From Leptolyngbya sp. SIO1E4 (GTDB lineage: Bacteria > Cyanobacteriota > Cyanobacteriia > Phormidesmidales > Phormidesmidaceae): a DNA stretch of 64,000 nt. The stretch is from positions 310,001-374,000 of the forward strand of contig JAAHFU020000003.1 in NCBI GenBank assembly GCA_010672825.2, in the 5' to 3' direction. Both the position numbers and the translations under genes were made by a program. Positions 5,303 through 28,174 of this stretch are shown here, one piece after another (the first letter of the stretch is position 1; every line of letters starts with the position of its first letter). The notes beneath the pieces were generated by a model that saw only the letters and a program-made list of their open reading frames with translations, did not search any database and was not told the DNA's origin.

Positions 5303-7264
5303 CTAGAAAGATGCCCCTGCAACGGTGCGGTTGCGCCCCTGTTTCTTGGCCTCATAGAGAGCCTCATCCGCTTTTTTGAGTAAATCGAATTGGGTATACG
5401 GTGGCTTAGGCACACACGTAACCACCCCTAAACTCAGGGTCACCACTGTATCGACCTCTGAATCTTCGTTCGGAAGCGCGAGCCCCAAAACAGCTTGGCG
5501 CAGGAACTCCGCCACATGAAAAGCTCCCTCAGCGCCTGTACTCGGTAGAACAATCACAAACTCTTCACCGCCGTAGCGAGCTAAGAGATCGCCAGACCGC
5601 TTGACTTCTCGACCCATCGCAGCCGCCACTTTTTTCAAACACTCATCACCAGCCGGGTGGCCGTAGCGATCGTTGTAACGCTTAAAGCAGTCAATATCGC
5701 AGAGAATGAGAGAGAGAAAAGACTGAGACCGTCGCATCCGTCGCCATTCCATCTCGATGTGCTTATCAAAATGACGTCGATTGGCGATTTGGGTGAGCCC
5801 ATCAACCCGATTCATCTCTGTTAACTGCTGGTTGAGGGTGTTAAGGGCCTGCTCCGCCTTGATGCGGTCTTCAATTTCTCGCTGAAGCTGTTGATTTTTT
5901 AGCTGGAGTTCTTGGGTGCGAGCCACCACTTTGGCTTCTAGCGACTCATACATCAACGCACGTTCAATGGCAACACCTGCATGAATATTGAACGCCAGCA
6001 TAAAAAACTCATCATCGTCATTAAAGCTCGCTTGGAAGCAATCTTGAACGTTTTCCCCTGCTGCATTATGCACAACGGATGTTTTGGATACGCCAGGGCG
6101 ATACTTATTAACGATTTGGGTGACCGCAATCAGGGTTCCCCCCGTGTCAAAAATGGGCATGCATAGCAAACTGTAAGTCCGATACCCGCTACGCTGGTCG
6201 ATGGCCCGAGCTGTTTTAGACTCTGGATGTTGGTAAAGGTCGCAAGGAATATTGAGAATCACACCGGTTTCAGCCACTTTGCCCACATAGCCTTCCCCAA
6301 CCGGAAGCCGAATTTCCTCTAGGGTGCCATCTGCAGAGGGAAGCTCAGCCCATAGATCACGGCGTTCTTGATCCACCAGCCAAATGGTGCTGCGGTCTGC
6401 AGTGAGGAGATTTTGCACCTCTTTCGTCACCCATTTCAGGGTACTTGCAAGCGTCGGCCCACTGTGATTCAGGGCTTGAGTTGCCTTGACCAGAATCGTC
6501 GCTGCTTTTTGCCGCCGAGCAGCCAGATAAAACGCCCGTGAACTTTCTAAGATCAGCCGAAACACATCGGAGAATTCAAAGAACGTGACTGCATCTACCG
6601 TGCTAAAACCTTCGGGATCAATCCGATCAGCCAAGGGCATCTCTGCTGGGGCATCGGGACGGCATTTGTTGATCACCTCAAGAACGGCCAGCAGATCTCC
6701 CTGGCTGTCTAGCACAGGCAAGGCCAGTAAGGTGTAGGTACGGTAGCCGGTCTGCTCTTCTAGCTTTTTAGCCGCCGTCGATCGCGGATCATCGTAAAAG
6801 TCGAAGGGCACGTTGACCGTTTTTTGAGTTCGGGCAACTTCCCCAGCAATCCCTTGGTTCCAAGGCAAGCGAATTTCAACGTTAGAGTTAGGCCCTTCAC
6901 CGGTGGCTACCGTTGACCACAACTCTTGTCGCCCCTTATCCGCCAGAAAAATCGTGGTGCGATCAGCATTCAACATATCGCCAACTTTAAAAGCACAAGC
7001 CTGCAGCATGTCTAGCAAAATGGCATCGAATGTTTGCCCCTCCAACATTGCCAGGGTTTGATTGACCACCAGAAGCTGCCGCTTCACCTGGCGAATCACC
7101 TGTTGGCAAGTATCTCGATTTAAAGGAGCTATCAGCTCAGAAAAAGAGTTGCCAGCGCAATTAATTTGCTCTAATAGCGGCGAATTGGCGTTAGAAATCA
7201 CCTCAAAGTCCAGCTCCGAGGCCAGTTGCGACCAATCAATGAAGTACCCTGAGGCGCTCACCAT
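5303..7264 (-). CDS. Diguanylate cyclase with two GAF sensor domains
   Basis: Predicted to make cyclic di-GMP from two GTP. Order: N-terminal segment, GAF-1 (about 60-230), GAF-2 (about 270-450), a coiled-coil signalling helix, then GGDEF. The active-site loop is GGEEF at 565-569. The inhibitory I-site RxxD is intact (RSGD exactly five residues before GGEEF), so product inhibition is expected. No EAL or HD-GYP domain. Start: the frame is open up to 7423, but the ATG at 7264 has AGGAG about 10 bases ahead and begins MVSASGYFIDWS, so it is preferred; 653 aa. No transmembrane segment, so sensing is cytoplasmic; ligands of the GAF domains are unknown. A 42-bp perfect palindrome lies upstream. Confidence 0.9.
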   Translation of the reverse strand: MVSASGYFIDWSQLASELDFEVISNANSPLLEQINCAGNSFSELIAPLNRDTCQQVIRQVKRQLLVVNQTLAMLEGQTFDAILLDMLQACAFKVGDMLNADRTTIFLADKGRQELWSTVATGEGPNSNVEIRLPWNQGIAGEVARTQKTVNVPFDFYDDPRSTAAKKLEEQTGYRTYTLLALPVLDSQGDLLAVLEVINKCRPDAPAEMPLADRIDPEGFSTVDAVTFFEFSDVFRLILESSRAFYLAARRQKAATILVKATQALNHSGPTLASTLKWVTKEVQNLLTADRSTIWLVDQERRDLWAELPSADGTLEEIRLPVGEGYVGKVAETGVILNIPCDLYQHPESKTARAIDQRSGYRTYSLLCMPIFDTGGTLIAVTQIVNKYRPGVSKTSVVHNAAGENVQDCFQASFNDDDEFFMLAFNIHAGVAIERALMYESLEAKVVARTQELQLKNQQLQREIEDRIKAEQALNTLNQQLTEMNRVDGLTQIANRRHFDKHIEMEWRRMRRSQSFLSLILCDIDCFKRYNDRYGHPAGDECLKKVAAAMGREVKRSGDLLARYGGEEFVIVLPSTGAEGAFHVAEFLRQAVLGLALPNEDSEVDTVVTLSLGVVTCVPKPPYTQFDLLKKADEALYEAKKQGRNRTVAGASF

Positions 7265-25556: not shown

Positions 25557-25757
25557 CTAGAATTCGGCAGCTTGTTTCGATAAGAAGATCAGGAAAAAAC
25601 TGAACATCAAAAGAGCTTCAAATCCGAGTAGGGTTAACCCATGAGTAAGTTTAACAATCAAGCACTCAATGAACGTGCTACTCATTAAAATACCAGCTTC
25701 AGAACTCAAACATTCCAAAGTTTCTAGCAAAAGTAGCCAAACCCTCAGAATTGGCAT
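25557..25757 (-). CDS. Small hydrophobic protein, last gene of the protoglobin operon
   Basis: 66-aa protein, MPILRVWLLLLETLECL... with hydrophobic stretches at about 4-17 and 30-58, so probably one or two membrane helices. It is real rather than a shadow: AGGAG lies seven bases before the ATG, and it sits 111 bp after the Roadblock/LC7 gene on the same strand. No family recognised. By position it may be a membrane anchor or partner for the Roadblock or protoglobin product (inference). Confidence 0.6.
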   Translation of the reverse strand: MPILRVWLLLLETLECLSSEAGILMSSTFIECLIVKLTHGLTLLGFEALLMFSFFLIFLSKQAAEF

Positions 25758-25868
25758 GATTATCTCCTAGAGATGAAAGCACATAATTTCCACCAACCAT
25801 TCCAAGGGTGAGTTTGCTTGAGAATGGCAGCAGAGAAGCGAATGGTTGTCTTCTCTACCGCAATTTTC

Positions 25869-26240
25869 TCAGAGCAAAATGGCTTTGAATTCGGAGACAG
25901 CTCGTTTAATTTCTAACATGAGGATTCCTTGTTTAGCAGTTTGACTTGCCAAAACTAGGAAAACTGCATCTTCGCCACAGTTGGTAAGAATGCCGTAGCC
26001 TGTATCGCCTTCTACATGAATACGGTCAATTCCCCCTCTAGCTAACTCACTCCCAATTCGTTCGCCTAAAGAGAGCATGGCTGCAGACATCGCAGAGACT
26101 CTTTCCTCGTCCATTCCACCTGGGAGGCTTGCTGCCAGGGGCAGGCCATCAGGGGTAACCAGTGCTGCGCCTTGTACATCATTAGTGCCAGCAACGAAGT
26201 TTGCCAAGACTGCAGTCATCTTTTCCAAATTGATAGCCAT
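25869..26240 (-). CDS. Roadblock/LC7-domain protein
   Basis: 123-aa single-domain Roadblock/LC7 protein (MglB-like fold). Typical blocks: LANFVAGTNDVQGAALVTPDGLPLAASL, then ERIGSELARGGIDRIHVEGDTGYGILTNCG and a final strand/helix. In bacteria such proteins form dimers that act on small Ras-like GTPases (as MglB on MglA) or serve as scaffolds. No MglA-like GTPase is adjacent. ATG 26240 has AAAGG upstream; two extra codons to 26246 are less likely. It sits between the protoglobin gene (57 bp upstream) and a small hydrophobic protein gene. Confidence 0.85.
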   Translation of the reverse strand: MAINLEKMTAVLANFVAGTNDVQGAALVTPDGLPLAASLPGGMDEERVSAMSAAMLSLGERIGSELARGGIDRIHVEGDTGYGILTNCGEDAVFLVLASQTAKQGILMLEIKRAVSEFKAILL

Positions 26241-26297
26241 AATCAAAACCTTTCAAATCTAGTAGATGGGTGCTATTCAAGAAGGGAACCGAGACGC

Positions 26298-26852
26298 TTA
26301 CATACTTGCTGCCCCAGTCGAAATCATCCGTTGAAAGAGTTTCTCGGTCCAGCCGGTTTCCCTAAGCACCGCTGCTGTTGAGACTTCGAGATATGCTTGT
26401 TCGATAAATGCTAAGTCAATCATGCAAATACGTGATAAGGCTGCTTGTAGTTCATCAGACTTACCTTCAGCACGCAATTGCTTCCCAACTTCATTGACAA
26501 CAGTGGCCATTGCTGGGACAACGTGTTGTGGCCCAATGCCAACCTTGACATGGATAAGGCCAATGCGCCAACGTCGTTCTGCATAGGCAGATCCCCAGTC
26601 ATCCATGCCTGTAAACATTTCATGAAACCAATCCACGAAGGTTTCACGTAGGCGATGGGTACGCCCTTCAGATTCACCCAGAATTGCACTCATCCCTTGA
26701 TCACTGCCAAGATAGGCATAAAAAGCGTCTGCCATCTGTGGTGCAATCCCCAAACCCCAATCTGCGTTGGCCTTTAAGACTGCCTGGTCATCCGCAGTGA
26801 ATTGAGTACGTGTAGCCATGCAAGTCATAAATTCATGAGGGTTGAGTGCCAT
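26298..26852 (-). CDS. Protoglobin-domain heme protein (stand-alone)
   Basis: 184-aa globin-sensor-type domain without an output module. The region WGLGIAPQMADAFYAYLG through DWGSAYAERRWRIGLIHVKVGI matches the protoglobin/globin-coupled-sensor family, with the likely proximal heme ligand His101 (GLIHVKV). It would bind O2, CO or NO. The frame is open to 27008, but the ATG at 26852 with GAGG upstream gives MALNPHEFMTCMATRTQF and is preferred. First gene of an apparent operon with Roadblock/LC7 and a small membrane protein. Sensor function is inferred. Confidence 0.82.
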   Translation of the reverse strand: MALNPHEFMTCMATRTQFTADDQAVLKANADWGLGIAPQMADAFYAYLGSDQGMSAILGESEGRTHRLRETFVDWFHEMFTGMDDWGSAYAERRWRIGLIHVKVGIGPQHVVPAMATVVNEVGKQLRAEGKSDELQAALSRICMIDLAFIEQAYLEVSTAAVLRETGWTEKLFQRMISTGAASM

Positions 26853-27559
26853 CCTATTGTCCTCGCTGATAGAGACATCAATTTTTCTTGACCTCTCCTT
26901 GATATCAAGCACACTCAAAAGAAAAGAACCGCGATAACACTTAAATAAATTTCGCGTGAAAACCGGTGAAATCAGCCTCGTACGTTTTTCCAATCGCAGT
27001 AAAAACACTTACTAGAGTGACTCGTTTTCATGAAATTAATCCCCATGGATTCCGTAACAAGGGAGGTGTCTATGAAAAATAATTGCTGGTATGGCTAAGG
27101 TTCATTTATCTTTTGAATTGCTTTAGAAATCCTTACTTTAACGGATAGAAGGCTCTGCGCTTTCTTGCATGGATGCAATTCCATTGGGATTTATCGGGAA
27201 ATATTCCTATGTTGCAAGCTATACCACATTGAATGATTGTTTGATTTTTCTTGGCAAGATCAATTTCTCAGTATTTTCCTAGTAATTTGAGGAGATCTTC
27301 AATCTGTAGTGCTTCTATAGTTCCTTATGGCCTAAAGATTGATATTCTCAATTCACGCCAGCCTCTACTAGGCTCTGCCCTCAGCTTTTTCATATAGAAA
27401 AAATTGACGATCGCGGATTGAAACAAGCTATCTACAATAGAGACCCGATAACAGTCAAAGGATTACCCGGTTACCTGGATAATTGAGGTTAGCTAATCTA
27501 AATGAGACCGCAACATGAGCGTCTAGACACAGAGCATAAAGCTCTGGAGGACTTATGCC
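26853..27559. other. Long AT-rich divergent intergenic region
   Basis: 707 bp between the protoglobin operon and the PD-(D/E)XK gene. No frame with a ribosome site. It must carry promoters both ways; the length suggests a long leader or a regulated promoter for the heme-protein operon. A short symmetric TTTCGCGTGAAA occurs near 26950. No family A-C repeat is present. Confidence 0.4.
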
Positions 27560-28174
27560 ATGCCTAGAGCATCCATCATTCAACCCGATCAGTCCTACAC
27601 CTTTGCCGACTACTTCAAACTCAACTTTGCCCCTCAAGACATCCTCGCCTATTTCAATGCTTCTCTCCAACGGCGCTCATTAACCCTGCCCCACTATGCT
27701 GGCCCCCTAGATCGCCTTGCCGATCTCAAAACTCGCATCGAAGAAAGCCTGCCTCGCCTGAGTCTCACCAGTGAGATGGCTCGACGAGAATTCCTCATTG
27801 CCCCAGTTTTAATGGATGTGCTGCACTATACCCAGGCCACCCTTAATGTCGAATATCCCGTGGCTGTGAGTAACCAACTTAAAGGTTCCTTAGACTACCT
27901 GCTCCAAAATCATCAAACCTTTCTGGTGATTGAAGCTAAAAACGAAGATCTGGAACGTGGGTTTGTACAGCTTGCGATTGAGCTCATTGCTCTAGATCAA
28001 TGGATAGAGTCAGATCAGCCTATTTTGCTAGGGGCCATCTCAACCGGCAATATCTGGCAGTTTGGTCAGTTCGATCGCCAGTCTCGCAAAGTGACTCAAG
28101 CTCTTGATCTGTACCGGGTGCCGGCTGATCTAGAAGACCTTTTGCGGATTTTAATTAGAGCGCTCGAACCCTAA
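27560..28174 (+). CDS. PD-(D/E)XK-fold nuclease-like protein
   Basis: 204-aa protein with the PD-(D/E)XK core: Asp112 in KGSLDYLL and Glu125-x-Lys127 in LVIEAKN, spaced as in restriction-endonuclease-fold enzymes. Cyanobacteria carry many such small stand-alone proteins, sometimes annotated as type I restriction R-subunit-like N-termini. No methylase or specificity subunit is adjacent, so a restriction role is not supported. GGAGGA lies 11 bases before the ATG. Confidence 0.65.
   Translation: MPRASIIQPDQSYTFADYFKLNFAPQDILAYFNASLQRRSLTLPHYAGPLDRLADLKTRIEESLPRLSLTSEMARREFLIAPVLMDVLHYTQATLNVEYPVAVSNQLKGSLDYLLQNHQTFLVIEAKNEDLERGFVQLAIELIALDQWIESDQPILLGAISTGNIWQFGQFDRQSRKVTQALDLYRVPADLEDLLRILIRALEP

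Follow-up and report, generated by a model that had tools for sequence, protein, structure and literature searches.

A protoglobin-Roadblock gene pair in Leptolyngbya sp. SIO1E4 that looks like part of a cyanobacterial operon with an MglA-family GTPase, split here over two loci

To which partner does a sensor globin pass its signal when it is encoded next to a regulator of small GTPases and no GTPase gene lies nearby? The question is raised by a short locus of Leptolyngbya sp. SIO1E4, in which a protoglobin gene is followed by genes of a Roadblock/LC7 protein and of a 66-aa hydrophobic protein (Table 1). The whole stretch of DNA analysed here, hereafter the window, is 64 kb long and corresponds to C3:310001-374000 of an 8.2-Mb genome in 12 contigs.

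Table 1. Positions of the features discussed, in the window, on contig C2 of the same genome and in related loci
Feature	Position	Strand	Basis or remark
Protoglobin (single-domain sensor globin), 184 aa, gene 1	26298..26852	(-)	ATG 26852; PF11563 69.1 bits
Roadblock/LC7 protein (MglB-like), 123 aa, gene 2	25869..26240	(-)	ATG 26240; PF03259 58.1 bits
Hydrophobic 66-aa protein, probably homologous to the small protein after DUF4388 in relatives	25557..25757	(-)	profile search
111-bp junction, place of the GTPase and DUF4388 genes in relatives	25758..25868	(-)	gene order in relatives
Ribosome-site-like stretch ahead of the globin ATG, GAGGACAATAGG	26853..26864	(-)	sequence
MglA-family GTPase with GTPGQ, sole genome copy of the subfamily	G000:C2:197759-198277		
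DUF4388 protein, sole genome match to the DUF4388 of L002	C2:198359-199147		PF14332, above cut-off (90.1 bits), in the C2 protein of this genome
V4R-fold partner, sole genome copy	C2:196779-197237		
Hemerythrin genes ending globin-Roadblock-GTPase-DUF4388 operons	L011:9766-10194; L132:5544-5954; L133:5194-5619		
Kinase/regulator pair directly upstream of a V4R-Roadblock-GTPase-DUF4388-globin operon	L031:280-2226; likewise L037, L052, L067, L070, L074		

The three minus-strand ORFs of the gene set described in the first-pass annotation were all recovered, with gaps of 57 bp between globin and Roadblock genes and 111 bp between the Roadblock gene and the 66-aa ORF. A purine-rich, ribosome-site-like stretch precedes each of the three start codons and is strongest (AGGAG) at the 66-aa ORF, as that annotation had said of this ORF. 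Its description of a stand-alone globin domain beside a protein with GTPase-regulator fold was borne out as well: the globin lies above the PF11563 cut-off of 25 bits and has no further Pfam match at E 0.1, and the Roadblock protein is above the PF03259 cut-off of 23 bits. Promoter- and terminator-like sites at the trio were about as frequent as in shuffled sequences and gave no sign for a single transcript. Pfam searches of the trio and its two flanking genes revealed no kinase. The window also encodes an amidase (PF01425; 23208-24947, minus strand) with a signal-like N-terminal stretch and a C-terminal tail that we liken to the PEP-CTERM motif; a 204-aa ORF divergent from the globin gene (27560-28174, plus strand) has a weak match to the nuclease-like HSDR_N_2 family (18 bits, below cut-off).

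Among solved structures, the nearest relative of the window globin is 8h17, i.e. Tlr1989 of T. elongatus (E 8.7e-80); next come the globin of a globin-coupled histidine kinase, 2w31 (chain named 'globin') and HemAT. The 194-aa globin of genome G118 is identical to 8h17 and orthologous to that of the window, with 120/184 identical residues. Residues Y45, H101 and H110 are invariant in 83/83 aligned globins, the window's included, and H66 is kept in 80 of the 83. Y45 and H101 align with positions 70 and 123 of HemAT, which we take to be its distal Tyr and proximal His with their roles in ligand binding. As judged from sequence, the window globin would bind haem and a gas, the latter probably being O2.

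The Roadblock protein carries the sequence PDGL and thus the Asp-Gly pair of the partner of MglA/MglB Groups 2-5; 87 of the 88 Roadblocks in its cluster, itself included, share the DGL motif. Its closest solved chain is 7f8m, and 3leq, the structure of CvnB5, is related to it in sequence (E 1.6e-7). In the tree it falls into a supported clade (98/92) with the Roadblocks of G013, L002 and L003. The amino-acid divergence of both proteins is low: in comparison with L002, dN amounts to 0.122 for the globin (146/183 identical) and 0.108 for the Roadblock (102/123). The same proteins of L002 and L003 share 146/176 and 102/120 residues, respectively, which places the window globin about as far from L002 as that of L003. 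In the window-L002 comparisons of both genes dS was above 3 or not computable, and dN alone was used since YN00 dN/dS estimation failed for five of six pairs and NG86 dS exceeded 2 or was not computable.

Gene neighbourhoods were then compared around the best 80 of 148 globin loci, every one of them in a record with a cyanobacterial name, the best matches coming from Halomicronema, Oscillatoria and Leptolyngbya records; since these 80 were taken by similarity, the context is biased towards close relatives. Clustering of ORFs around the globin revealed recurrent same-strand genes for Roadblock, a Ras-like GTPase, DUF4388, which we take to be the PATAN domain, and a V4R-fold protein. Linkage was counted by tblastn within 3 kb around the globin, an ORF-overlap filter having masked the Roadblock of L003. 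On the same strand and at no more than 3 kb, Roadblock was found in 74/80 loci, GTPase in 70, DUF4388 in 52 and the V4R-fold protein in 34; none of the four was seen on the opposite strand in any of the 80 loci. Near the lineage of the window the usual order is globin-Roadblock-GTPase-DUF4388, in many cases followed by a small protein. The pentapeptide GTPGQ is present in 83/83 clustered GTPases.

Ten of the 80 loci did not have both Roadblock and GTPase within 3 kb. Neither gene accompanies the globin in five (L004, L024, L030, L047 and L053); in L036, L039 and L063 the globin is close to a contig end; in L040 the GTPase lies slightly beyond 3 kb from the globin copy used; and L061 has a Roadblock with no GTPase beside it. 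The GTPase is encoded in the genomes of eight of nine of these loci (L040 left out). It should be added that the solo globins of L024, L030, L047 and L053, near 6001-6552, are second copies in genomes that carry the GTPase elsewhere, and that G081, G094, G102, G104 and G181 have two globins each, not all of them at an operon.

The joint conservation of the trio, which the first-pass annotation had proposed as a check, therefore holds for the pair of globin and Roadblock (74/80 loci) but not for the small protein beyond part of the group; a small protein follows 18 of 60 DUF4388 genes examined. A closed three-gene system was rejected, as relatives have GTPase and DUF4388 genes between Roadblock and small protein. 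The trio rather resembles what is left of a larger cyanobacterial operon of globin, Roadblock, MglA-family GTPase, DUF4388 (PATAN) and small protein, which often includes the V4R-fold protein and sometimes a hemerythrin.

The weakest part of the locus is the 66-aa ORF, which is likely, though not certainly, homologous to the small protein after DUF4388 in relatives, as far as sequence comparison can tell. It has no Pfam or NCBIfam match, and tblastn with it returned nothing convincing (best E 0.44, in L002). Some relatives encode a hydrophobic protein of 64-75 aa right behind DUF4388, its start being no more than 3 nt away from the DUF4388 stop codon in several of them. A profile of these relatives that excluded the ORF ranked it first of 389 window ORFs, with E 0.019 (13 seeds) or 0.0021 (16 seeds). 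Composition-matched shuffles reached its score in 13/9999 and 3/10000 cases, respectively, and the best shuffle outscored the ORF under all three profiles tried. Pairwise, 17/5000 shuffles scored as high against L119 and 1/5000 against L002. The match of 16 of the 18 small-protein members to the profile holds by construction, since these were its seeds. Positions L8, L11, S19 and G22 are invariant in 16 small-protein sequences, and the window ORF has the same N-terminal pattern. A chance ORF was considered and dropped in view of the positional homologues and the profile match. The AF2 model predicts an all-helical protein with modest confidence (mean pLDDT 79.5, pTM 0.34), and conservation is poor, with dN of 0.51 against L002 over the first 25 codons.

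Where, then, is the GTPase of this genome? Genes for GTPase (tblastn), DUF4388 and V4R-fold partner were not found in the 64-kb window, and in this scope the statement of the first-pass annotation that no MglA-like GTPase is present stands; for the genome it does not, as one copy is located on contig C2. The order there is V4R-fold partner, Roadblock, GTPase and DUF4388. The genome thus holds two Roadblocks (C2 and window) and a single protoglobin, that of the window. The clade mates of the window Roadblock (G013, L002 and L003) all keep a GTPase gene beside it, and the loss of the GTPase in cis is therefore derived. A short-word blastn search of the 111-bp junction against L002, L003 and L119 for a remnant of GTPase or DUF4388 gave matches no better than chance (the best over 11 bases, at E 0.22); an assembly error at the junction is possible. 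In G025, a second split separates the globin (C123) from Roadblock-GTPase-DUF4388 (C132), each lying more than 10 kb from contig ends.

Co-occurrence was assessed in two genome samples picked regardless of gene context; these overlap in part with one another and with the genomes of the 80 loci. Among 39 nearer genomes, the own one included, the globin is present in 11, the GTPase subfamily in 16 and the Roadblock in 18; each of the 11 genomes with the globin also encodes the other two. The GTPase occurs without the globin in five of the 39, four of them with a Roadblock, and the GTPase core can thus run without this globin. Across 194 genomes of the phylum the counts are 18, 20 and 20, respectively, and again all 18 globin genomes, spanning 12 genera, carry GTPase and Roadblock (globin-GTPase association, Fisher p 2e-23 with kinship ignored); absence of the GTPase in this sample means absence of this subfamily at E <= 1e-20. 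For 17 of these 18 globin genomes, globin and GTPase lie on one strand at most 1.7 kb apart, the exception being the genome studied here. The same threshold applied to the globin count missed the diverged protoglobin of G085, a genome with the GTPase; it was found by reading the locus, where it occupies the same slot (47/175 residues identical to the window's). In G120, which has the GTPase and no globin at the operon, the V4R-fold protein stands beside Roadblock, GTPase and DUF4388. At L134:2466-3017, the protoglobin beside Roadblock, DUF4388 and GTPase is 27% identical to that of the window.

The V4R-fold protein is conserved, 150-167 aa long and bears no Pfam name above cut-off in the members scanned (L086:6741-7244 is the own-genome C2 copy); the Pfam V4R family matches it weakly in 7/30 members (best E 0.0017), and no convincing sequence match was found in the PDB. 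The model of the L081 homologue (pLDDT 84) matched the folds of MopR/PoxR (E 4e-6) and Bet3 (E 9e-6), with Z scores of 17.0 for MopR (16-17 for MopR/PoxR), 13.6 for cellulose-synthase subunit D, 13.1 for Bet3 and about 8.5-8.8 for H-NOX. By this model the partner appears closer to V4R sensor domains (MopR/PoxR) than to TRAPPC3/Bet3 or cellulose-synthase subunit D. The DUF4388 proteins of L002 and C2 have a weak C-terminal winged-helix match, below cut-off.

Hemerythrin-like genes occur in 9/80 loci, on the strand of the operon, in eight downstream of DUF4388 and in one (L002) before the globin, and tblastn placed hemerythrins beside the operon in G118, G205, G038 and G011 as well. All three hemerythrin-like proteins run through Pfam contain PF01814; tblastn of relatives' loci and the window found none in the window. 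Hemerythrins bind O2 and have a fold unrelated to that of globins. That a second, unrelated protein of O2-binding type belongs to the operon makes O2 the more likely signal. In 6/81 loci, each from a Nostocales-type record, the operon is preceded on its own strand by a histidine kinase and a gene of a response-regulator cluster; the one kinase tested, that of L031, has HisKA_3. Another kinase cluster was noted near the globin in five loci. In view of the kinase/regulator pair, some lineages probably have inputs other than the globin, which need not be the main one.

The globin being encoded beside a Ras-like GTPase and its regulator in many cyanobacteria suggests that oxygen sets the switch. 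On balance, we lean towards the view that the globin provides an oxygen-responsive input to a Roadblock-regulated small GTPase, from one operon in most relatives and in trans in this genome. Signalling by protein contact through the Roadblock, as previously suggested, is still the best idea, but the switch it appeared to lack exists, on C2. We infer the formation of a complex, its contacts, the direction of the signal and the output of the module as follows. Ligation of the gas at the haem would change the conformation of the globin, which may contact the Roadblock (MglB-like) dimer or the GTPase and so alter the action of the Roadblock on the MglA-family GTPase. The GTP-bound GTPase would then pass the signal on through the DUF4388/PATAN protein, with the small hydrophobic protein perhaps serving to anchor the complex at the membrane. 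Here, GTPase and PATAN genes would have been lost between Roadblock and small protein, the two halves meeting in trans, with the window pair of globin and Roadblock presumably acting on the C2 GTPase. The Roadblock of C2 may instead be the true partner of the C2 GTPase, which would leave the window pair partnerless. A more specific version we put forward tentatively, as a possibility in which we have less confidence: an oxygen-gated Ras-like switch, in which the haem globin, joined in some lineages by a diiron hemerythrin, would control a Roadblock assembly (with the V4R/TRAPPC3-fold protein where present) that sets the nucleotide state of the MglA-type GTPase, and which would be working here after its split over two loci.

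Alternatively, the globin could be a scavenger of O2 or NO, or an enzyme, that shares a regulon with a GTPase system of motility or polarity and makes no contact with it. Redox activities have been reported for protoglobins, according to the parts of PMC4020757 available to us, and the five solo globins agree with such a role. The complete co-occurrence in two samples, the tight same-strand linkage with the Roadblock and the diverged protoglobin in the same slot, however, are more in line with a functional partner than with a general detoxifier, and we regard this explanation as rather unlikely. Decay is quite improbable in our view: the trio would then be a non-functional remnant and the C2 module would work alone, as might be suspected from the loss of cis GTPase and PATAN genes in a clade otherwise having both, and from the poor conservation of the small protein, yet neither globin nor Roadblock is disrupted, dN is low for both and their divergence is like that between intact relatives, and G025 likewise keeps a split-off globin. 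A self-contained trio, in which globin and Roadblock act directly on the small membrane protein or on something else and need no GTPase, would agree with the lack of a GTPase in the window, but is very improbable, as the globin was never found without the GTPase subfamily in either genome sample and exactly one copy of that subfamily is kept in this genome.

An oxygen-responsive input to a Roadblock-regulated GTPase would extend systems already described. GTPGQ is the G3 motif of MglA Groups 2-5, of which Group 5 is reported in Cyanobacteria, and a PATAN protein sometimes adjoins the Roadblock-GTPase genes, as given in the accessible parts of PMC4316618 (Wuichet and Sogaard-Andersen 2014). The GTPGQ GTPase, the Asp-Gly Roadblock and the occasional PATAN neighbour are thus shared with MglA/MglB Groups 2-5; this genome holds a GTPGQ GTPase, although no GTPase gene stands beside the window Roadblock. 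Unlike in those groups, the operon includes a haem sensor and, in some loci, the V4R-fold protein and hemerythrin, and it is split in this genome. The word 'globin' is absent from the main text of PMC4316618. As for the globin itself, a 194-aa protoglobin of T. elongatus was listed in a 2006 survey (PMC1457004) and a 'single sensor hemoglobin' of this organism was studied in 2023 (Mathur 2023), presumably the same protein as Tlr1989; so far as these sources were accessible, they name a globin or protoglobin and no operon, whereas in G118 the same protein heads an operon of Roadblock, GTPase, DUF4388 and hemerythrin. The conservons of Streptomyces (CvnA-D) likewise combine Roadblock, MglA-family GTPase and sensor in an operon; their sensor is the histidine kinase CvnA, in contrast to the globin found here, and the window trio is without a kinase. 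Asgard TRAPP/Ragulator-like sets resemble the module in having GTPase, Roadblock and a TRAPPC3/V4R fold in one genome (PMC10933270, accessible parts). According to the same parts of that paper, GTPase genes of MK-D1 are generally not in operons with Roadblock- or TRAPPC3-fold partners, whereas the cyanobacterial GTPase, Roadblock and V4R-fold genes often share one. The component families are therefore already known, and the adjacency of Roadblock, GTPase and PATAN genes is in print, in the accessible parts of PMC4316618. A link between globin and GTPase was not found in the literature searched, with few subscription papers within reach, and no precedent was found there for the stable membership of globin, hemerythrin and V4R-fold protein in the operon.

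None of the sources found establishes what single-domain sensor globins do in the cell. With a sensor globin of solved structure at the head of the operon, such a globin would gain a specific partner and become a candidate for feeding an oxygen signal into a Ras-like switch. The splits in this genome and in G025 constitute a natural test of whether the parts work in trans, and the V4R/TRAPPC3-fold member offers a simple bacterial setting for Roadblock and V4R/TRAPP-type folds around a GTPase. If true, the reading would add a pathway from gas to small GTPase, and a bacterial operon uniting GTPase, Roadblock and V4R/TRAPPC3-fold subunits.
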